In this document: piece after piece, positions 17,136 to 29,253 of the stretch
Numbering within the stretch: the stretch's first letter is position 1
Layout: every line of letters starts with the position of its first letter
From: Alphaproteobacteria bacterium
GTDB lineage: Bacteria; Pseudomonadota; Alphaproteobacteria; UBA7985; JAUIBT01
Direction: 5' to 3'
Length of the DNA stretch: 64,000 nt
Assembly: GCA_030428255.1 (NCBI GenBank)
Contig: JAUIBT010000011.1
Span: 1-64,000 of the forward strand
Translations under genes and position numbers: made by a program
Notes under the pieces: generated by a model
What the model was told of the DNA's origin: nothing
Seen by the model: only the letters and a program-made list of their open reading frames with translations
Database searches by the model: none

Positions 17136-20100
17136 TTAGAATTTCGCGATTGCGTTGATGAACCAGCCCGAGGCATTGGCATCGGTGTTGGTCAGATTAT
17201 CGCTGACGCTCGAGAAGTTATAGCCGCCACCGATCTTGAAGTTATCGCCGACGTGGCGGTAAACGCCGACCAAAGCGCCGTACTTGGTCTGCTGGTTTTC
17301 TTGGTGGTGCAGGATGCGGCCCTCCAACAGAGCGTCCCAATTCTTCACGATGTGGAAGTCGGCACGGATAATGCCCAGGTGCGCGGTTGAGGAGTAGAAG
17401 TCGTTGCTGGCGGCATTCAAAGTCCGCTGTCCCAGCTTCAAGCCGTACTTCGCGCCGATGGTCAACTGAGGCATGACATCATAGGCCACGTCCGCAGACA
17501 AGATGTGCGAGCGCTGCTTGTAGGCACCATTGGCCGCGTTGGCCACGGTGTCAGACGGCAGGTCGGCATAGAAGCGATACTTGAACAGGGCGTTCAGGCG
17601 GTCGTTGTCGATGGGGCGGTAGGCCGCGCCGATATCGCCGTCGATAAAGTTGCCGTTCTGCAATTGGCCGTTCTTATCCGAGATGAAGGCCGCAATCTTG
17701 GCCGACAAGCGCCAGCTTGGGTCTACCTTATAGCTGGCGTTGGCCTTAGCCAGCCAGGTGCGGGCCTCTTCGCCCATGGCGTTGGTGTCAGAGCGATACT
17801 CCAGCGCCGCGCCGATCTTGCTGTTTTCGATCGAGAAGCCAACCGAGCCGCTGGCCGCGATGCGGCGCAGATCATTGCCGGTCACAACGTCCTTAACGTT
17901 ACCCACCTCGATGGCGCTGGACAGGCTCCAGTTGTCGTTGGGGGTGTAGTTGACGCCGTAAGAGTGGGTCAGGCCGGTCACGCCCCAGCCTTCGTGGATC
18001 AGGTGCTCTTCACCAAAGACCGACAGGCTGTCGGTAAAGCGCGTCTTGCCGCCAACCGTGACCTTGCCAGTGGTGGGGTCAAACACCTTGGCACCGCTTG
18101 AGCTGCCGGTGCCGCTGTTGGTCCGAAAGCCGGTCTCGTAACCCGCATAATAGTTTGTGCGGTCGCTGTGAGCATAGTCGATGCCCAGGCGCGCAGCCAC
18201 TTGCTGGGCGTCGAGCGCGTAGGAGACCTCACCATCGGCGGTGAGCTTCTCGTTAATTTTGGCGCTGCCGCCCACGCCCAGGATGGTGTCCTTCAGCGTT
18301 GGATCATCGGCCGCGATGGTGGTTTGACCAAAGACCCGCGCTTTGGTGCCTTCTGAAATGTTGTAGGCCAGCTCGGCACCGACATCGGTCTTTGAGCCCT
18401 GCGCGGTGGTGTTGAGGTAGCCGATGCCAAGGCCAGCCTCCAGCGCGCCGAAGGTCTGGCGGACATCGACTTGCGCGGTGGTGCTGCTGGTGTTGGTATC
18501 CAAGTTGTCAACACGGGTGGCTTTGGCGGTCACAGCGCCGCCGGTCTCACCGATGGGAATGTCAGCCGATACGCCATAACGACGCTCGTTGTTGGCGGTG
18601 TAGTTGCCTTCGCCGGCAAAGCCCTGGTCGCGCTGCTGGAAGTAGGCGCCCAATCGGCCCTGTACGCTGGTGACGCCCAAATCGGCCAGGTCTACCGCAG
18701 CCTCGACGCCATAGGCGCGGGCCTCGGGGTTGGCTACGACGATGGCGGTGTTGGCACAGGTGGTGCCGCCAGCGGTGTTGGAATTCGTGGCATTACAGGC
18801 GGTAAAGCCGCCATCGCTTGAGGCGGTGGTGGTGACAGCAGTGCCCGCGCTTTGGGCGACCTCTGCCTTGATATAGGTGCCGGGGGTGGCTTGGACCTTG
18901 ATGTCCGCGCCGACGACGCTCTTGTTTTCGCCGGTGGTATTGTCGTACTGGCCAGTCACGCCCAAGGCCACGTTGTCGCCGATCCAACCTGCCAAGCGAC
19001 CGCCTGCCAGATAGTTGTTGCCGATCTGGGTGGTGGTCGGTGTGAACTCATAGTTGACCACCAAGAAGGCGGGGTTGCTGCCGCCATTGGGGCCCAGCGT
19101 CGTGATGAAGTTGTCATCAAAGCTGGATTGCAGCGGGTAGGACAGGATGATCCGACCCTGGATGTAGTCCACGTCATAATCTTCTTCGGGCACCAGATCG
19201 CGGCTGTTCAGCACCACGCCGGTGTTGGGATCGCGCGCTTCGATGCGCACCTTCTCAGAGCCCACGGTGATATCTTGGTTGGACAAGAAATACAGCGAGC
19301 CGCCGGTGCCTCGGAACTCGTCGCGCTGGGGCAGGGTGCCGGGCTGGGCTGCAAAGGCCTGAACCTGAATGCGGCTGTCGCCGTTGTTGGTTTTGGCGTT
19401 CGACAGGTATTGGGCACTGGCACCATAGAGACCACGGTTAATCGTGATGAACTGGTTGCCGGTGATGTTGGTCTGATAGTTGCCCCACATGGCGTAGGAC
19501 TCGTCTTTTTCGATCCGCACATAAAAGCGGCCCTGGGTCGGTGCCAGGTTCTCGATGGTCGAATCATCGCCATAGACGGGGTAGTATTTGTCGGGATCGA
19601 CGCGATCCAGCAGGTTGGCGGGATCTTTCTTGTCGATGTTCTGGATGATTTCTTCCAGTGTGCCGTGGCCGGTGTCCGCCATTGCGGTCAGCAGCACGTC
19701 GCCGCGAATCTTGCCACGCACGAAGAAGGCGACGCGGCCATCAACGGTGATGTCACCATAGCCCGAAGTGTTGCCGACAAAGGCGGCGGGGCCGGTGGTG
19801 TTGGTCGAACCGATGGTCAAATCACCCAAGGCGACATAGAAAACCTCGTCTTCAGGGATGATCAGCTCGCGGCTAAAGTTCAGGCCGCGGCGATACAAGT
19901 CTACAACCGCTACGGATACTTGGTGCGTACCGGCGGGCAGGATCTCACGGGCAACAAAGTCGCCGCGCGAATCGACGGGCACGCGCTCGCCCAGAACGTA
20001 GGCAAGGTGGCCGGCTGGAGCACCGGTGCCAAAGACAGTGACCGCGCCACCGCTGACATTAATAGCAGAAACCGCAAGCGTGTTCTGGTCCCAAGCTTCG

Positions 20101-20804
20101 CCCAAATCGTCGAAGCTGTCGCCTTCGGCCAGCGCGCCGCTGTCGTCAATGGTCAGCAGCTTGGGTGCGGTTTCGTCCCAAACGCCGTTCTCATCGTAGA
20201 GACGCAAGACGTACTGCAACTGACGGCCCTTGAGCGAGCTTGCCAGCAAACGCAGCGGTGTGACCTTGCCTTCGGCTACCGGCAAGACCTGGACCGGACG
20301 ACCCTTGACCGAGGATTTGACGTCGAAAATGCGCACTTCTGCGCGCTTGACCCAATAGGAGTAGTTCCAATAGGCGGCAAAGGAATGCGTGTTGGCGATT
20401 GTGCGATTGGCATCGACCACGGGCTCCGCGCTGTCGCTGCCCAGCAGGACGATGTTGGCGGATTTCTCGACGTTTAGGCCGTCGAACTGGATTTTGATAT
20501 CGGTGCCGCCCGCCGAGCCACCTTGACTGCCGGACTGAACCGCGCCGTCCACACTGATTTGAAACGGCGAGGGCTGGGGGCCGGTTGCGACGGGGGTTGG
20601 GGTCGGTGCAACCGACTTTGACAGCACGGTATTGGAGGGCTGAGCGGCCTGGACTGTTTCAGGCTGAGCCGCATAGGTCTGGGCCACAGACGGCTGTGCA
20701 GAGCTCATCCAGACACCGACCATTGCTGTGCCCAGCAGGCACACCATACCTAATAGAGAAGTGGTCGAGTGGTTAGGCCCAGTATACGAATTGGCCAAGA
20801 TCAT
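17136..20804 (-). CDS. Large outer-membrane beta-barrel protein with N-terminal periplasmic domains
   Basis: 1222 residues. An N-terminal signal-like segment (about 15-42) precedes a Pro/Ala/Gln-rich stretch, then beta-rich, Ig-like domains to about residue 350. The central part has PVYGDDSTIENLAPTQGRFY, MWGNYQTNITG, RDEFRGTGGSLYFLS and DYDVDYIQGRIILSYPL, which I recognise from an uncharacterised family of large outer-membrane proteins in proteobacteria, sometimes annotated as OmpA- or TonB-related. The C-terminal 600 residues show alternating beta strands and end in NAIAKF, with the terminal aromatic expected of a barrel. No TonB plug motif is evident. The exact start is uncertain (no good ribosome-binding site; Met20 is an alternative). 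Confidence 0.72.
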   Translation of the reverse strand: MILANSYTGPNHSTTSLLGMVCLLGTAMVGVWMSSAQPSVAQTYAAQPETVQAAQPSNTVLSKSVAPTPTPVATGPQPSPFQISVDGAVQSGSQGGSAGGTDIKIQFDGLNVEKSANIVLLGSDSAEPVVDANRTIANTHSFAAYWNYSYWVKRAEVRIFDVKSSVKGRPVQVLPVAEGKVTPLRLLASSLKGRQLQYVLRLYDENGVWDETAPKLLTIDDSGALAEGDSFDDLGEAWDQNTLAVSAINVSGGAVTVFGTGAPAGHLAYVLGERVPVDSRGDFVAREILPAGTHQVSVAVVDLYRRGLNFSRELIIPEDEVFYVALGDLTIGSTNTTGPAAFVGNTSGYGDITVDGRVAFFVRGKIRGDVLLTAMADTGHGTLEEIIQNIDKKDPANLLDRVDPDKYYPVYGDDSTIENLAPTQGRFYVRIEKDESYAMWGNYQTNITGNQFITINRGLYGASAQYLSNAKTNNGDSRIQVQAFAAQPGTLPQRDEFRGTGGSLYFLSNQDITVGSEKVRIEARDPNTGVVLNSRDLVPEEDYDVDYIQGRIILSYPLQSSFDDNFITTLGPNGGSNPAFLVVNYEFTPTTTQIGNNYLAGGRLAGWIGDNVALGVTGQYDNTTGENKSVVGADIKVQATPGTYIKAEVAQSAGTAVTTTASSDGGFTACNATNSNTAGGTTCANTAIVVANPEARAYGVEAAVDLADLGVTSVQGRLGAYFQQRDQGFAGEGNYTANNERRYGVSADIPIGETGGAVTAKATRVDNLDTNTSSTTAQVDVRQTFGALEAGLGIGYLNTTAQGSKTDVGAELAYNISEGTKARVFGQTTIAADDPTLKDTILGVGGSAKINEKLTADGEVSYALDAQQVAARLGIDYAHSDRTNYYAGYETGFRTNSGTGSSSGAKVFDPTTGKVTVGGKTRFTDSLSVFGEEHLIHEGWGVTGLTHSYGVNYTPNDNWSLSSAIEVGNVKDVVTGNDLRRIAASGSVGFSIENSKIGAALEYRSDTNAMGEEARTWLAKANASYKVDPSWRLSAKIAAFISDKNGQLQNGNFIDGDIGAAYRPIDNDRLNALFKYRFYADLPSDTVANAANGAYKQRSHILSADVAYDVMPQLTIGAKYGLKLGQRTLNAASNDFYSSTAHLGIIRADFHIVKNWDALLEGRILHHQENQQTKYGALVGVYRHVGDNFKIGGGYNFSSVSDNLTNTDANASGWFINAIAKF

Positions 20805-21328: not shown

Positions 21329-22315
21329 ATGACGCAAAAGCAGCGCTTTAAAGCCGCAAGGCGGGTTCCGCCACCCGATCAGCGGGCGCAAAATCGCAGC
21401 AACAAGCGCGCGGTGAAGGTGCGGCGCGGGTCTGGCCTGTTGCTGGCCTTTCTGCCGCTTCTGCTGGCACCGGCGACGCTGTTCAAATTCTTCACCTTTC
21501 GCTTGGATCAGGCGCTGATCTTGGTGCTGGCTATGATCGCCTTGGGTGCGGCGGCTTCGCTGGTGCGCCAGGGCCTGGCAGAGCAGGCCGACTACGATGC
21601 GGCCGCCATGGCCCGCGCGCCGCGCCCCCGCAAGGCGCAGGGCTTTGTGCTGATTGCGCTGGCGGTGGCGGGCAGTCTGGCATGGGCCTCGCCAATGTCG
21701 GTAGCGACGGCGGCGTTTTTCGGCGGTCTGGCTGGTCTGTCGGCGATGCTCGCCTATGGCCTGGATCCCATGCGCGACAAGCTGCCCGAACGCGACCAAC
21801 AGGGAGGCGACGAGCAAGACCTGAGGGCGACCAACCAACGGGCCTGGAAGCACATCGAAGCGGCCGAGGCAAAGATCACGGCGCTGGAGGCCACCGCCGA
21901 TGCGCTGGATCGCCAGATCCTGATTTTTGCCGCTCACACCACCCAACCGCCGCTCGATCAACAAGTGGCGGCCATAGCACATAAGATCGCGCGGGTGGCA
22001 GAGCTGGCGCAGCGGGTTGTCGAGCTGGTGCGTCAAGACCCTTCAGATATCAACCATGCCCGGCGCTTCTTTGTGACCTATCTGGATCAAGTCAGCCAGG
22101 TCAGCGACAAGTTTCAAGCCTATGCTGACCAGGCCAAAGACACCGCGCAATACCAACGCCTGGCCGATATCAGCGGCGCTTATTTGCGGGTTCTCGAGAC
22201 CATTGAAGCGGCTTGCCACGAACAAATTGAGCGCCTGCAAGCCCACGACCTCATGGATTTGGAAGTGCAGATTGAGGTCTTGCAGACTCAGTTGGATCGC
22301 GAAGGATTAGTCTGA
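21329..22315 (+). CDS. xpaC: XpaC family membrane protein (5-bromo-4-chloroindolyl phosphate hydrolysis protein)
   Basis: 328 residues. A basic N-terminus is followed by four hydrophobic helices between about 37 and 150, then a cytoplasmic helical, coiled-coil-like region with ARRFFVTYLDQVSQVSDKF and YLRVLETIEAACHEQIERLQ. This arrangement and the position just before telA identify XpaC (PF10112). Despite the name, the family is not known to be a phosphatase; it is found with TelA in tellurite/toxic-anion and envelope-stress loci. It is the first large gene of a four-gene operon. Confidence 0.8.
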   Translation: MTQKQRFKAARRVPPPDQRAQNRSNKRAVKVRRGSGLLLAFLPLLLAPATLFKFFTFRLDQALILVLAMIALGAAASLVRQGLAEQADYDAAAMARAPRPRKAQGFVLIALAVAGSLAWASPMSVATAAFFGGLAGLSAMLAYGLDPMRDKLPERDQQGGDEQDLRATNQRAWKHIEAAEAKITALEATADALDRQILIFAAHTTQPPLDQQVAAIAHKIARVAELAQRVVELVRQDPSDINHARRFFVTYLDQVSQVSDKFQAYADQAKDTAQYQRLADISGAYLRVLETIEAACHEQIERLQAHDLMDLEVQIEVLQTQLDREGLV

Positions 22316-22426
22316 TATAAATTGAGAAAATCGCATTTCGACTGCGGATATGGCAGTTTATATTGAAGATCTCGCAGGACCCAAATCGTGGGGACAGAGA
22401 GCAAAGAGCCCCCAAAGGAAGCTTTC

Positions 22427-23713
22427 ATGACAGACACTTCAAGCGCGCCGACACAAACTTCTGTCGCTTTGCCTGCGGCTGTTGATCGCGGCGTTGCTGA
22501 GCTGCCGCCTGAAGTACTGCTGGACATAACCAACAACGTCGAAGCGAGCAGCGAACAAGACTTGATCGAAAAGTTCATGGCTGAGATCGTCATGGATGAC
22601 AGCAACTCGATCATCTATTTCGGCACCCAAGCCCAATCGCAGTTGACCGAGATTTCCGACCTCATGCTGGAAGGCGTGCGCAATAAGGAGACCGGCCAGG
22701 CGGGCCAAGCGCTGAACGACATGGTCTCGCGTTTGCGCGATCTGAAGTTGGACGGCATTGATCCGTCAAAGCGGCCCTCCTGGCTGGCGCGCCTATTCGG
22801 GCTGCGCTCGAAGGTGGAAACCTTCCTCAATCAATACGCCGAGGTGCGCGCGCAGATCGACAGCTTGTCGGACAATCTGGAGCGCCACAAAACCGGCCTG
22901 TTGACCGATGTTGCCAGCCTGGACCGGCTCTATGACGCCAATCTGGACTATTTCCACACGCTGGAGCTCTACATTCAGGCCGGTGAGCGCAAGCTGGGCG
23001 AGCTTGACACCCGCGTCATTCCCGACTTCGCCCAGAAGGCCGAGGGCTCGGGCGATGTGCTGGAAGCCCAGCGTTTGCGCGATCTGCGCAGCGCGCGCGA
23101 TGATTTGGAGCGTCGCCTCCACGATTTGCGCCTGACCCGCCAGGTCACCATGCAATCGCTGCCCTCGATCCGTTTGGTTCAGGAAAACGACAAGGCGTTG
23201 GTCAACAAGATCAACTCCACCCTGGCCAACACAGTACCGCTCTGGCGTCAACAGATGGCGCGCGCGGTGACCATCATGCGCTCGGCGGCGGCGGCCAAGA
23301 CGCTCAAAGAGGCCAGCGACTTGACCAACGAGCTGCTGACCGCCAACGCTGACCAGTTGCGCGATGCCAACCGCGAGACCCGCGAGCAGATCGAGCGCGG
23401 TATCTTCGACATCGATGCGGTTAAGCAGGCCAACGACCAACTGATCGCCACCATCGAAGACAGCTTGCAGATCAACGAACAAGGCCGGGCCATGCGCCGG
23501 GAGGCTGAGGACACGCTGGCTGCCTGTGAGGCCGAGCTGAAGACCATGCTCAAGGCCTCGCAATCGCGCGCTGCACGCCCCCCTGCCGAGCCTGCGACCA
23601 AGGCAAGCAACCCGCACAAGGCGGCAGGTGATGAGACCGTGATTATCGCAGCCCCTGCACCGGCTGAGGATGAAGCTGCAAGCGAGGACGACAAGCCGCC
23701 TGCGACCGGCTAA
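22427..23713 (+). CDS. telA: Toxic anion resistance protein TelA
   Basis: 428 residues from ATG 22427, 6 nt after AAAGGAAG; an in-frame GTG at 22388 is less likely. Almost entirely alpha-helical, it has LARLFGLRSKVETFLNQYAEVRAQI, DVASLDRLYDANLDYFHTLELY and RLVQENDKALVNKINSTLANTVPLW, the core of TelA (PF05816). The last 50 residues are an acidic, Ala/Pro-rich tail. TelA proteins are associated with tellurite, colicin and cell-envelope antimicrobial tolerance, by an unknown mechanism. Downstream spacing to the SPFH gene is 97 nt. Confidence 0.9.
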   Translation: MTDTSSAPTQTSVALPAAVDRGVAELPPEVLLDITNNVEASSEQDLIEKFMAEIVMDDSNSIIYFGTQAQSQLTEISDLMLEGVRNKETGQAGQALNDMVSRLRDLKLDGIDPSKRPSWLARLFGLRSKVETFLNQYAEVRAQIDSLSDNLERHKTGLLTDVASLDRLYDANLDYFHTLELYIQAGERKLGELDTRVIPDFAQKAEGSGDVLEAQRLRDLRSARDDLERRLHDLRLTRQVTMQSLPSIRLVQENDKALVNKINSTLANTVPLWRQQMARAVTIMRSAAAAKTLKEASDLTNELLTANADQLRDANRETREQIERGIFDIDAVKQANDQLIATIEDSLQINEQGRAMRREAEDTLAACEAELKTMLKASQSRAARPPAEPATKASNPHKAAGDETVIIAAPAPAEDEAASEDDKPPATG

Positions 23714-23810
23714 ACTCGCCACCTGAGGGCAAAGGCGCTGGCGCGCGCGATGCCTTCGCGGTCAGCTCGCACGCACGTATGCGCTCCAATTTCGACGAAG
23801 GAAGGGCCCC

Positions 23811-25040
23811 ATGGGACTGTTTGATATCTTCACAAGCCAATTCATCGACATCATTGAGTGGCTGGACGAGAGCAACGATACCTTAGTCTATCGCTTCGAT
23901 CGTCATGACAACGCGATCAAAAACGGAGCCAAGCTGACCGTGCGCGAAGGACAGATGGCGGTGTTCGTCAGCCAGGGGCAGACCGCTGATGTCTTTGGCC
24001 CCGGTATGTACGAGCTGGTGACGGCCAACCTGCCCATTTTAACCGACCTCAACCATTGGGATCACGGCTTCTCCTCGCCCTTCAAGGCCGAGGTCTATTT
24101 CTTCAACATGCGCCGCTTTGGCGATCTGAAGTGGGGCACGCGCAACCCCATCATGCTCAACGATCCAGAGTTCGGCCCCTTGCGACTGCGCGCCTTTGGC
24201 ACATACGAGATGCGAATCGGTGAGCCGCAAACCCTGCTGGTTCAGGTGGTTGGCACCGATGGCCATTTTACCATGGACGAAATTTCAGACCGTTTGCGCA
24301 ACATCATCGTCTCCAAGTTCAGCTCTAGCTTAGCGCGGGCCAAAATCCCGGCGTTGGAGTTGGCGGCCAACTACCAGCAGCTTGGCGAGCTGGTGGCCGA
24401 GCAACTGGAAGAAGAATTTGCTGACTACGGCGTTAAGCTGGTGGATTTTTGGGTTGAGAATATCTCCTTCCCGCCGCGCGTCGAAGAGGCCTTGGATCAG
24501 CGCTCGTCGGTAGGAATGGTGGGCGACCTGTCGCGCTATTTCCGCTTCCAGCAGGCCGAGGCCTTGGGCGCGGCTGCCTCGGCGGATAATGCTATGGGTG
24601 CAGGTATGGGTGCCGGGATGGGCGCGGCCATGGGGGCCAGCTTGGCGGCGGGTATGCAGGCCGCCCGGGCCCAACCCGCTCCCCAGGCCCAACCCGCCAC
24701 CCAGCCCGAACCCCAGCCCGAGCCAGCCCCACAACCAGAGCCTGAGCCGGCACCCGTCCTACGCGCCAGCCCCCCGCCGATGGACGCCGCGGCACCGTCT
24801 GCGAGCCTGCCCGAAGGACTAGAATACCACCTGGGCATTGATGGCGAAATCCAAGGCCCCTTTGACGCCGAAGCCATGGTTGACCTGGTGCAAGCTGGAC
24901 GCGTGACAGGCCAAACACTGGCCTGGACAGCGGGCATGGAAGGCTGGGAACCCATGGAAGCGGTCGAGGAATTGGCTGGCATTCTGGACCACATGCCGCC
25001 ACCCATGCCAGGCTCTCTGCCTGGTCCGGGCGCGAGCTAA
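23811..25040 (+). CDS. SPFH-domain protein with C-terminal GYF_2 domain (YdjI/virion-core-like)
   Basis: 409 residues. The first roughly 260 are an SPFH/stomatin-like domain of the type named virion core protein (MGLFDIFTSQFIDIIEWLDES, VFGPGMYEL, FFNMRRFGDLKWGT). Residues about 265-325 are a linker with MGAGMGA repeats and a Pro/Glu/Gln-rich stretch. Residues about 335-395 (GEIQGPFDAEAMVDLVQAG, WTAGMEGWEPM) are a GYF_2 domain, a probable protein-interaction module. No transmembrane helix is seen, so it is likely a peripheral membrane scaffold. A strong GAAGGAAGG precedes the ATG. It lies between telA and the zinc-ribbon gene. Confidence 0.85.
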   Translation: MGLFDIFTSQFIDIIEWLDESNDTLVYRFDRHDNAIKNGAKLTVREGQMAVFVSQGQTADVFGPGMYELVTANLPILTDLNHWDHGFSSPFKAEVYFFNMRRFGDLKWGTRNPIMLNDPEFGPLRLRAFGTYEMRIGEPQTLLVQVVGTDGHFTMDEISDRLRNIIVSKFSSSLARAKIPALELAANYQQLGELVAEQLEEEFADYGVKLVDFWVENISFPPRVEEALDQRSSVGMVGDLSRYFRFQQAEALGAAASADNAMGAGMGAGMGAAMGASLAAGMQAARAQPAPQAQPATQPEPQPEPAPQPEPEPAPVLRASPPPMDAAAPSASLPEGLEYHLGIDGEIQGPFDAEAMVDLVQAGRVTGQTLAWTAGMEGWEPMEAVEELAGILDHMPPPMPGSLPGPGAS

Positions 25041-25061
25041 GGGCAGCGCGGCAAGAAAGCG

Positions 25062-26174
25062 ATGGCCGACGACCTGCTCCACAAGCCCTGCCAGACCTGC
25101 GGCGCGACCCTGAATTACGAGCCGGGCGCAACTACGCTGGATTGCCCCTATTGCGGCAGCCAGAACGATATTGCAGTGCCCGCAGCGGCCTTAGCGCGCT
25201 TTGAGCTGAGCCCGGCGCTTGGCGGTGCATCAGAGACCGACTTGCCGCCCGAGCGGCACATCTCCTGCCCCTCGTGTGGCGCAGAGGCAATCATGGCCCC
25301 GCAGGTCTTCGCCCGCTCGTGCGATTTCTGCGAAACCGTCCTGATCGACCAAGACACCAAGCTCCGACGCTTTGCGCCCCAAGGCCTGCTGCCGTTTGGC
25401 GTCGAGGAAGGCCAGGCCCGCGAGCGGTTGCGCCGCTGGCTGCGCAGCCTTTGGTTCGCGCCCTCATCCTTGGCGCGGTCTGCGCGCGCCAAGCAGCGCT
25501 TGCGCGGGGTCTATGTGCCCTATTGGTGCTTTGATGCGATGACTAAGACCGACTATCGCGGCGAGCGCGGCACCACCCACACCGTTAGTCGCCGGGTTCA
25601 GGTCATGAAAGGCGGCAAGAGCCAGTGGGTTTCGCGCAGCCAACAGGTCACGCGCTGGCGGCCCGCCTCAGGCCAGGTTGCACGACGGTTTCGCGATTTG
25701 CTGGTGCAGGCCGACGGCGGACTCAAAGAGCTGGAGGATCGCCGCTTTTCGTCCTGGGATACCGACGCGCTGGAGCCCTTTGCTCCCGACTATTTGGCAG
25801 GCTATGAAGCGCGGCTCTATGGCTTGGATCTGCCGCAGGGCTGGCAGGCAGCCTTGCGGGCCATGGAGGGCGTCATTCGCGGCGACATTCGCCATGACAT
25901 CGGCGGTGACAAGCAGCGCATTCATACCCTCAACACCCACCATTGGGACGAGCGCTTCACGCTGGTGCTGTTGCCGATCTGGATGTCTGACTACCGCTTT
26001 GGCGGCAAAGACTATCACGTTGTGATCAACGGGCGCACGGGCGAGGTGCGCGGTCAGCGCCCTGTGGCTTGGTGGAAGGTCGTGGTGGCGGCCTTGCTGG
26101 TGTTGGGTCTGGTGGCAGCGGCCTTGCTGATCGCCGGGGCGTCTGAGGGCGTCAGCTTAACGCCCCCGATTTAA
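25062..26174 (+). CDS. Zinc-ribbon membrane protein, partner of the SPFH protein
   Basis: 370 residues. Two zinc ribbons are visible: Cys10/13 with Cys28/31, and Cys69/72 with Cys87/90. A central globular part (VYVPYWCFDAMTKTDYRG, then SQWVSRSQQ) follows, and a single hydrophobic helix spans about 341-362 near the C-terminus. Similar proteins are encoded beside YdjI-type SPFH proteins in Bacillus. The gene starts 21 nt after the SPFH stop, so it is the last gene of the xpaC-telA operon. The two-ribbon, tail-anchored layout suggests a membrane receptor for the SPFH scaffold (inference). Confidence 0.75.
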   Translation: MADDLLHKPCQTCGATLNYEPGATTLDCPYCGSQNDIAVPAAALARFELSPALGGASETDLPPERHISCPSCGAEAIMAPQVFARSCDFCETVLIDQDTKLRRFAPQGLLPFGVEEGQARERLRRWLRSLWFAPSSLARSARAKQRLRGVYVPYWCFDAMTKTDYRGERGTTHTVSRRVQVMKGGKSQWVSRSQQVTRWRPASGQVARRFRDLLVQADGGLKELEDRRFSSWDTDALEPFAPDYLAGYEARLYGLDLPQGWQAALRAMEGVIRGDIRHDIGGDKQRIHTLNTHHWDERFTLVLLPIWMSDYRFGGKDYHVVINGRTGEVRGQRPVAWWKVVVAALLVLGLVAAALLIAGASEGVSLTPPI

Positions 26175-28188: not shown

Positions 28189-28329
28189 TTTAACTGCTGC
28201 CGCGACGCCGCAGGCCGCTCAGCCCCTTGATCCCGCGGCGCGGTAGCCAGCGAAATCCTCGTTGACCCGCCGGGCCAGGCGGGGCAAATCTGCTGAGCCG
28301 ACCCACCCTTGCTAGTTTGGACGCTTCCC

Positions 28330-29253
28330 ATGATTTCTGCCGTGTTGCGCCGAGGCCCAGAGATCGCTTTTGGTGCAGCGCTTTTGGCGCTTTGGACGCC
28401 AAGTTTTGATCGCATAATTGCGAACTGGGTGCCGGTGCTGTTGCCGATTTTGACCTTTCTGTCGCTGCTGCTGCTGCCCCGCCAATCGGGCGAAACGCGC
28501 TTTGTTTGGTGGCAACCAGTGGTGCTGACCCTCTGGGGGCAGGGGGTCTTGCCTTGGATTTTGGTCGGTGGCCTAGCGCTGGCGGGCCTGGCACGCGACT
28601 GGCTGTTGATCGCCTTGCTGCTGAACTCGGCGGGCAGTGTCTATCTAGTGACCAATTTTGCAATCCTGTTGGATCGTAGGCCGCGCCTCATGCTGACCTT
28701 GTTGATTTCGGGCTTGGTGGCGACGCCGCTGTTCTTGTTTATCAATGCCAGCATGTTTTTTGCCTCCTGGGTCGCCATCGACCTGGTGGGCTTTGCCAAG
28801 GCCACGACCTTGTTTTTGGTGCTGCCCATGGCGGCCGCTTGGGGGGCGCGACGGCTGGGGTTGGCCGAGCGCGGGCGCAGCGGCTGGCAGCTCGCCAGTC
28901 TGGCGGTGGTGACGCTGATCGCCTTTGGCCTGGAGGCCGAGGTCAGTGCGAGCTTGACCGACGGGTTACGGCGCGCAGATTGGGCACAATTGATGCGCAT
29001 TGCCCAAGCCTTGGTCTTCGTTGTTGGCTTGGCTTTGGCAGCCTTTTTCATTTCGCGCACGACGCTGGGCTGGCTGGGGCTGCAGCTTAAGGGCGGGGCG
29101 GGCTTGGTGGCGCTGGGTCATGCGGTGCGCAACGCAGCCATGGTCTATGTGCTGGTGCGCGCCTACTTGCCAGACAGCTATGGCCTGGTGCTGGGGGTGG
29201 TGCAGATCCCGATCTATTTTGCCCCCTTGGCCATGCGCCACCTGCGATCATGA
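28330..29253 (+). CDS. Polytopic membrane protein, possibly bile acid:sodium symporter-like
   Basis: 307 residues from ATG 28330 (a TTG at 28309 is in frame). About nine hydrophobic helices cover nearly the whole length. The C-terminal GLVALGHAVRNAAMVYVLVRAY with a conserved-looking HAVRN, and VVQIPIYFAPL, recall the last helices of BASS-type transporters, but the match is weak. It diverges from paaI; a link to aromatic acid uptake would be speculation. Confidence 0.5.
   Translation: MISAVLRRGPEIAFGAALLALWTPSFDRIIANWVPVLLPILTFLSLLLLPRQSGETRFVWWQPVVLTLWGQGVLPWILVGGLALAGLARDWLLIALLLNSAGSVYLVTNFAILLDRRPRLMLTLLISGLVATPLFLFINASMFFASWVAIDLVGFAKATTLFLVLPMAAAWGARRLGLAERGRSGWQLASLAVVTLIAFGLEAEVSASLTDGLRRADWAQLMRIAQALVFVVGLALAAFFISRTTLGWLGLQLKGGAGLVALGHAVRNAAMVYVLVRAYLPDSYGLVLGVVQIPIYFAPLAMRHLRS

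Follow-up and report, generated by a model that had tools for sequence, protein, structure and literature searches.

A TelA-containing gene cassette with SPFH-GYF and zinc-ribbon partners, apparently a variant of the YdjGHI/Psp kind

The four genes and their products

The window, i.e., the whole 64 kb stretch of DNA that was analysed, carries at positions 21329-26174 four adjacent genes, all on the + strand, which encode in order an XpaC-like membrane protein, a TelA family protein, an SPFH protein that bears a GYF_2 domain at its C-terminus, and a tail-anchored two-zinc-ribbon protein. The gene coordinates agree with the Pfam and cysteine evidence on this arrangement, as the initial annotation had described it. 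The intergenic spacings are about 111, 97 and 21 nt; no regulator lies within the cassette, and a promoter/terminator scan of it gave counts near or within chance.

The XpaC-like protein (21329..22315, 328 aa) matches PF10112 with E = 1e-16 in its C-terminal third only (residues 217-318). Its architecture comprises a basic N-terminus, three to four membrane helices and then a helical domain, which is probably cytosolic. The hydropathy profile shows clear peaks at residues 37-55, 61-79 and 107-125, whereas a fourth region is weaker, making the "four-helix" protein of the initial annotation plausible rather than certain. Alignment revealed conserved DPxD and EVEIEVL-type motifs. The XpaC of the window is also one of the rare XpaC sequences bearing PPP, which lies at residue 14.

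The TelA family coiled-coil protein (22388..23713) matches PF05816 with E = 8.9e-106 and lacks a membrane segment. Judging from the nucleotide sequence and an alignment of the family, its start is most likely the ATG at 22427, with AAGGAAG upstream, rather than the GTG at 22388, which gives a protein of 428 aa. The AlphaFold model (mean pLDDT 71.5) has helices of 83, 113 and 54 residues. A search of this helical hairpin against solved structures gave no Foldseek match at E ≤ 0.001, and no ESCRT-III fold was among the Foldseek or VIA-align matches listed. The best VIA-align rows (Z about 13) were alpha-pore-forming toxins and helical bundles, a level also reached by unrelated bundles, and the matches to ClyA/AhlB-type bundles lie at chance level for helical models.

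The SPFH (Band_7_1) scaffold protein (23811..25040) matches PF13421 with E = 3.4e-92 and GYF_2 with E = 4e-15, and its hydropathy profile contains no hydrophobic membrane segment. Among the control genomes, B. subtilis alone has a PF13421 match at E ≤ 1e-20. The GYF_2 domain (residues 339-388, 24825..24974) matches the GYF domain of Myxococcus AgmX (7z3c, E = 1e-6). Proline motifs lie on both sides of it, with PPP from residue 321 on the N-terminal side (24771..24779) and a polyproline tail, PPPMPGSLP (residues 396-404, 24996..25022), directly on the C-terminal side. All 84 of the 84 SPFH proteins from cassette loci have PPP within their last 25 residues, and in an independent set the tail is present in 8/8 GYF-bearing SPFH forms and in 0/9 intact non-GYF forms. 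One divergent TelA-linked SPFH/GYF-like protein (locus L148) lacks the tail. In the other cassette proteins, PPP is rare (TelA, 1/68; XpaC, 3/65) or occasional (zinc-ribbon protein, 18/88), and a ligand for the GYF domain outside the SPFH protein was rejected. As GYF domains bind proline-rich peptides, self-crosslinking of the SPFH protein is predicted, and this pairing offers a concrete, mutable prediction for how SPFH assembly may be switched.

The fourth protein (25062..26174, 370 aa) gave no match above cut-off with Pfam models. Its eight cysteines, arranged in CxxC pairs, form a first (C10-C13 and C28-C31, 25089..25154) and a second zinc ribbon (C69-C72 and C87-C90, 25266..25331), and are invariant across 34 aligned sequences; both ribbons are also invariant in two further alignments, except that C28 is near-invariant in one of them. 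The hydropathy profile shows one strong hydrophobic segment at residues 340-358, 12 residues from the C-terminus. The AlphaFold model (pLDDT 84.4) contains a putative YpeB/PepSY-like domain bearing a long beta hairpin, and its best PDB match is the YpeB C-terminal domain (5boi), with a Z of only 5.5 over 66 residues and an rmsd of 3.1; a relation to YpeB has already been published for YdjG. Matches to beta-barrel pore toxins and secretins (Foldseek E ≥ 0.045, probability ≤ 0.16) were rejected, as the long beta hairpins of the model explain them. A homologue with 24.7% identity (E = 2e-16) lies in Enterococcus between SPFH and TPM genes, and the putative YdjG likeness of the protein was assessed through this homologue.

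Distribution and co-inheritance

Gene order and strand are kept in 65/65 loci having all four genes, and the compact form of the cassette is found across alpha- and gammaproteobacteria. Across 398 genomes from the phylum, the genes co-occur in pairs with Fisher p values from 2e-13 to 5e-38, with kinship ignored; the arrangement far exceeds what chance would give. In Rhodobacteraceae, where the cassette is near-core and occupies a conserved chromosomal site, TelA and SPFH have an identical distribution (81/90 genera). Among the 83 genomes of the sampled genera that are at least 90% complete, 76 have the TelA, SPFH and zinc-ribbon genes, 7 have none of the three and 0 are mixed, a pattern which counts genomes rather than independent losses; for TelA and the zinc-ribbon gene, the Fisher p value is 2e-10 before phylogenetic correction. 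The initial annotation had staked the system beforehand, in part, on co-occurrence beyond a few genomes, and both surveys found this decisively. The TelA and SPFH trees have one fully supported split in common. Nine Rhodobacteraceae genomes have all three genes although TelA is not linked to the zinc-ribbon gene in them, which argues for a functional coupling beyond linkage. A cassette in Enemella (Actinomycetota) was not counted as a wide transfer, as it nests inside Rhodobacteraceae in the TelA, SPFH, zinc-ribbon and XpaC trees.

The cassette is the union of two known modules, i.e., a YdjI/YdjG-type SPFH-zinc-ribbon pair and an XpaC-TelA pair. The XpaC and TelA genes lie ≤ 6 kb apart on the same strand in 32 of the 36 genomes having both, and XpaC-TelA pairs without SPFH occur in other alphaproteobacteria; SPFH-zinc-ribbon pairs without TelA occur in several proteobacterial families as well as in Vibrio, Comamonas and Tsukamurella. 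As each pair occurs alone, neither strictly needs the other. A gene for a DUF2927 protein, often with a lipobox, is found in 59/71 cassette loci, and no homologue of it was found in the window. This partner, the pairing of GYF domain with polyproline, and the existence of the two pairs as separate modules were absent from the initial annotation.

Proposed mechanism and alternatives

We favour, with about even confidence, a reading in which the cassette encodes a scaffold of the YdjGHI/Psp type that lies against the membrane, with the XpaC-TelA pair as its effector arm. The tail-anchored zinc-ribbon protein would act as the receptor in the membrane, exposing its zinc ribbons and YpeB/PepSY-like domain to the cytosol, and would recruit the soluble SPFH protein, which would then oligomerise on the membrane. 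Binding of the flanking polyproline, on its own or a neighbouring chain, by the GYF domain may cross-link the SPFH oligomers or hold them off. XpaC would tether the long coiled-coil TelA to the membrane, where the SPFH patch may load or organise it. Upon envelope stress, e.g., membrane-active peptides, oxyanions or lost membrane order, the assembled layer would protect or fluidise the inner membrane, much as has been proposed for PspA-YdjGHI in Bacillus; in Rhodobacteraceae, the DUF2927 protein would add a periplasmic part. The envelope-stress function itself is suggested by the literature on homologues. In Listeria, a mutant of the telA-family gene lmo1967 is reported as 4-fold more sensitive to nisin and 2-fold more sensitive to tellurite (cited in PMC12791056).

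The initial annotation had XpaC and TelA taking the place of PspA. In the genome of the window, which is 99% complete, PspA went undetected (no PF04012 match, against 9/14 control genomes with one), and a clear PspA match is present in only 19/90 Rhodobacteraceae genera. However, PspA accompanies TelA in 17/81 TelA-bearing Rhodobacteraceae genomes and is present in 2/9 without TelA, and a complementarity of the two in this family was therefore rejected. Because of this coexistence, the replacement holds for gene position and not as mutual exclusion. With this and with the hairpin model giving no significant structural match, TelA as an equivalent of PspA is unproven.

Alternatively, the cassette may comprise two separate modules on one transcript, in which the SPFH-zinc-ribbon pair takes care of the assembly or quality control of a membrane complex and XpaC-TelA deals on its own with toxic oxyanion or antimicrobial stress. 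That each pair is found alone is consistent with this possibility, which we nonetheless consider rather unlikely, given that TelA and SPFH are perfectly all-or-none in the 90 Rhodobacteraceae genera, even where TelA is unlinked, and that a divergent GYF-bearing SPFH-like gene adjoins XpaC-TelA in an unrelated lineage (L148). Less probable still is that XpaC, TelA and SPFH serve TerC-type metal exporters or secretion machinery rather than membrane repair. A TerC-family gene, identified by Pfam, lies in the fetched flanks of 15/71 cassette loci, the receptor has two zinc ribbons, the DUF2927 protein is frequent and often lipobox-bearing, and TerC proteins of B. subtilis load exported enzymes with metal at the secretion machinery (PMC10550928). 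However, TerC genes are common and lie near just a fifth of the loci, and the window lacks both a DUF2927 homologue and, by tblastn with a TerC query, TerC. An anti-phage role, which would fit the match to the PHROG of phage TelA and the earlier placing of TelA among Ter-type anti-superinfection components, jumbo phages with TelA and Ter genes having been read as helping against superinfecting phages (PMC7824862), is very improbable, since the sole match to PADLOC models, which falls on a zinc ribbon, is weak (E = 0.059), since pattern scans of viral contigs confirmed no relative of either TelA or the zinc-ribbon protein, and since the cassette, unlike mobile defence islands, is near-core at a conserved chromosomal site in Rhodobacteraceae.

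For decades TelA has been labelled as conferring resistance to tellurite or toxic anions, to our knowledge with no mechanism attached. The cassette provides it with genetically tight partners which resemble a characterised membrane-repair assembly, and makes its mechanism approachable by simple deletion and localisation experiments. Rhodobacteraceae are an abundant marine group. As the trio is near-core there (76/83) while clear PspA is found in only 19/90 genera, the cassette may be their main route for dealing with inner-membrane damage. A bolder version, which we hold to be unlikely, would make TelA the founder of a second class of coiled-coil effectors that remodel membranes, distinct from ESCRT-III and loaded by a dedicated SPFH receptor complex whose assembly is switched through GYF-polyproline self-recognition; the system as a whole would be the principal inner-membrane guard of Rhodobacteraceae.

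Comparison with known systems

A combined-term literature search found neither TelA, XpaC and SPFH together nor a description of the cassette, which we take to be a widespread and apparently undescribed variant of the YdjGHI/Psp kind. The Ter stress-response systems share with it the TelA component, which has been classified as a sub-membrane structural component (PMC7824862), and, at a minority of cassette loci, a nearby TerC gene; here, in contrast, SPFH and zinc-ribbon partners are present and the window has no TerC homologue. Band-7/polyamine operons (DUF4178, DUF350, spermidine synthase; PMC11237479) use a related SPFH protein as a swappable scaffold, an arrangement also seen with a related SPFH in Novosphingobium; the cassette has no polyamine genes, whereas TelA/XpaC and the SPFH GYF domain are missing from those operons. 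Listeria lmo1966-lmo1967, a putative two-gene operon (PMC12791056), likewise has neighbouring XpaC and TelA genes, to which the cassette adds the SPFH-GYF/zinc-ribbon module.

The closest comparison is with B. subtilis pspA-ydjGHI (ydjFGHI), where YdjI and YdjG/YdjH bring PspA to the membrane and affect membrane fluidity (PMC8581546), an assembly supported by two-hybrid data (PMC9239133). A kinship with this module, as initially proposed, is borne out by the Enterococcus locus, in which homologous SPFH and zinc-ribbon genes lie beside a TPM (YdjH-type) gene, and by the YpeB-like best structural match. Common to both are the SPFH Band_7_1 protein, the tail-anchored two-zinc-ribbon protein, whose YpeB-like domain is putative in the cassette, and the co-directional operon. 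We note two differences. First, the cassette has XpaC and TelA in place of PspA and the TPM protein YdjH, the only TPM match of the genome being on another contig. Second, the cassette SPFH protein ends in a GYF domain and polyproline, whereas the Bacillus protein is reported to have a zinc ribbon there, as the Enterococcus protein was seen to have.

The four genes and their edges

As the initial annotation held, four adjacent genes lie on one strand of the window at 21329-26174, and the identities of TelA, of an SPFH protein with a GYF_2 domain and of a double-zinc-ribbon protein (ZnR) with a C-terminal hydrophobic helix were borne out by Pfam, alignment and hydropathy. The first gene (21329-22315, +) encodes XpaC, whose PF10112 match is confined to the C-terminal part; of the four membrane helices attributed to it, hydropathy shows three clearly, behind a basic N-terminus, and the fourth is only possible. 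TelA follows (22388-23713, +; PF05816, 9e-106), for which an ATG at 22427, with AAGGAAG upstream, seems a likelier start than 22388. In the SPFH protein (23811-25040, +), Band_7_1 precedes the GYF_2 domain, while ZnR (25062-26174, +) has eight Cys that do not vary across 34 aligned sequences and form its two zinc ribbons, a central domain to which no Pfam name applies, and a hydrophobic helix spanning residues 340-358.

The cassette ends cleanly, since it is flanked by a divergent gene for a 1222-aa protein (17136-20804, −; no Pfam family at E ≤ 0.001) on one side and, on the other, by a convergent AMP-binding enzyme gene, which a thioesterase gene adjoins. The 1222-aa protein has a signal-like N-terminal stretch and repeated regions, the latter suggestive of an outer-membrane barrel. 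A strongly hydrophobic, multi-helix protein of 314 aa, encoded at 28309-29253 (+), has no Pfam match.

Conservation of the cassette and its two modules

A scan of genome contigs with a ZnR alignment returned at least 566 relatives, and 88 loci were analysed, 80 among the scan matches listed and the other 8 belonging to the window's relatives. The flank is long enough for all four genes in 65 of these 88, and the order XpaC–TelA–SPFH–ZnR on one strand is kept in 65/65. Co-occurrence likewise reaches beyond a few genomes, being significant for all six gene pairs in 398 genomes of the phylum (Fisher p 2e-13 to 5e-38, uncorrected for relatedness), where pairs ≤6 kb apart are always on the same strand. 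XpaC is also present in all 26 genomes of this sample with TelA, SPFH and ZnR genes that were compared in this respect (the window's genome and family f25), at a distant site in two of them.

Most of the loci analysed are from Rhodobacteraceae, whose chromosomal neighbourhood is fixed (apparent pseudouridine synthase and D-aminoacyl-tRNA deacylase genes flank the cassette). Synteny alone could thus reflect inheritance, and therefore presence or absence of TelA, SPFH and ZnR genes (XpaC left out) was tested in 90 Rhodobacteraceae genera. TelA and SPFH occur in an identical set of 81 genomes, and ZnR in 79. When only the 83 genomes with ≥90% completeness are counted, all three genes are present in 76, none is present in 7, and 0 are mixed. 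In nine genomes the TelA and ZnR genes lie apart with both retained; some of these are contig breaks, and in one (G451) about 37 kb separates them on the same contig. A divergent second ZnR paralogue was seen outside the cassette in a few Rhodobacteraceae genomes (G435, G444, G448, G453).

This all-or-none pattern argues against two independent modules that simply share one transcript, a reading favoured by the occurrence of each module elsewhere: SPFH–ZnR pairs without TelA in other proteobacterial families, Vibrio, Comamonas, Tsukamurella and one Bacteroidales genome, and XpaC–TelA pairs without SPFH in other alphaproteobacteria. The window cassette is a union of the two. In the TelA-less pairs, the SPFH C-terminus varies (GYF, helix-turn-helix-like, SHOCT-like tail, zinc ribbons). 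At loci L130, L132, L135 and L138-L146, the ZnR-paired SPFH swaps its C-terminal domain, GYF with polyproline being one form, as if the scaffold exchanges its adaptor; L135 also has polyamine genes. A metal- or secretion-linked complex, a less likely rival reading, would accord with TerC within the fetched flanks of 15/71 loci. Phage defence is disfavoured, as there was no meaningful PADLOC match and the scans used turned up no viral relatives.

Two subtypes can be told apart. The compact one occurs in the window, in other members of its genus and in two related families of its order, as well as in Geminicoccaceae, Granulosicoccus and Methylococcaceae; in the Rhodobacteraceae one, TelA and SPFH are separated by a DUF2927 gene in 59 of 71 loci (e.g., L102). 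DUF2927 proteins carry a lipobox-like motif in 44/61 and, by regular expression, a conserved HEE(L/I)xQGxGLxND motif in 43/61, possibly a metalloprotease-like site or its remnant. Full support for the subtype split in both the TelA and the SPFH tree suggests that these two genes moved jointly between alpha- and gammaproteobacteria. In its own tree, the ZnR of the window is a long branch of unsure placement, and the XpaC tree sets the Rhodobacteraceae form apart and resolves compact members poorly. A contig labelled Enemella evansiae (Actinomycetota; L128), with a Rhodobacteraceae-like cassette and two XpaC genes, is probably contamination or a mislabelled assembly. In another lineage (L148, 2275-9314), a divergent SPFH/GYF-like gene comes after XpaC–TelA, and next to it are three lytic transglycosylase-like genes with LMQLMPAT-type motifs, which may point to a connection with peptidoglycan.

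The polyproline tail and a proposed working

GYF domains bind proline-rich peptides. PPP is found in the last 25 residues of 84/84 cassette-locus SPFH proteins (some partial), directly after the GYF domain, and also ahead of that domain in 81/84; at these loci it is nearly absent from TelA and XpaC and occasional in ZnR. Related SPFH proteins from a separate set have the tail in 8/8 cases with GYF and in 0/9 intact cases without it. The divergent TelA-linked GYF protein of L148 has no such tail. Given the ligands of the GYF family, the pairing of GYF and tail would be most simply explained if SPFH chains bind one another, or themselves, through these two parts. In the working we propose, ZnR would be a cytosol-facing membrane receptor that recruits SPFH, GYF–tail contacts would cluster SPFH or keep it inactive, XpaC would tether TelA and TelA would build a sub-membrane layer, the assembly protecting the inner membrane under envelope stress.

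Judged by homologues only, such protection would be the most likely role. Listeria TelA mutants are reported to be 4-fold more sensitive to nisin and 2-fold more to tellurite, and lmo1966-lmo1967 go up on bacteriocin exposure (PMC12791056). Ter systems are held to include TelA as a structural element beneath the membrane (PMC7824862), and Paracoccus TelA was found in plastic biofilm proteomes (PMC11962581). The observation behind the initial annotation is confirmed in gene arrangement, domains and co-occurrence, and its interpretation as an envelope-stress system is partly supported, the stress role being drawn by analogy.

Comparison with the Bacillus YdjGHI–PspA module

In B. subtilis, the SPFH protein YdjI and the membrane proteins YdjG and YdjH place PspA at the membrane, and cells that lose YdjI have less fluid membranes (PMC8581546); two-hybrid data on this system have also been reported (PMC9239133). 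YdjG is described as combining a pair of zinc ribbons with a YpeB-related domain and a membrane segment (PMC11237479), and the window ZnR appears to follow the same plan of domains. The best PDB match of its AlphaFold model (pLDDT 84.4) is the YpeB C-terminal domain, albeit weak (Z 5.5, 66 residues), and in Enterococcus gallinarum the gene for a ZnR homologue has an SPFH-zinc-ribbon gene on one side and a TPM (YdjH-type) gene on the other. The similar plan and this gene context support the kinship to Bacillus SPFH and zinc-ribbon proteins first suggested.

No PspA was detected in the window's 99%-complete genome, and the single TPM gene found there is away from the cassette. Membership of the PspA module is ruled out, since PspA and TPM were looked for at the locus and not found. 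That XpaC and TelA take PspA's place holds in gene position but not as an exclusion: PspA is independent of TelA in Rhodobacteraceae (17/81 genomes with TelA vs. 2/9 without), and the structure modelled for TelA (a long helical hairpin, predicted with moderate confidence) has no significant match among solved structures, so the replacement is positional only. The two best-scoring PspA matches of the 90 Rhodobacteraceae (G455, G517; two genomes only) are both from genomes without detected TelA.

The cassette is a widespread union of a YdjI/YdjG module with XpaC–TelA, near-core in Rhodobacteraceae and apparently undescribed within the open-access literature searched. It resembles a YdjGHI-type receptor, with the difference that XpaC–TelA stands where PspA–YdjH would be.
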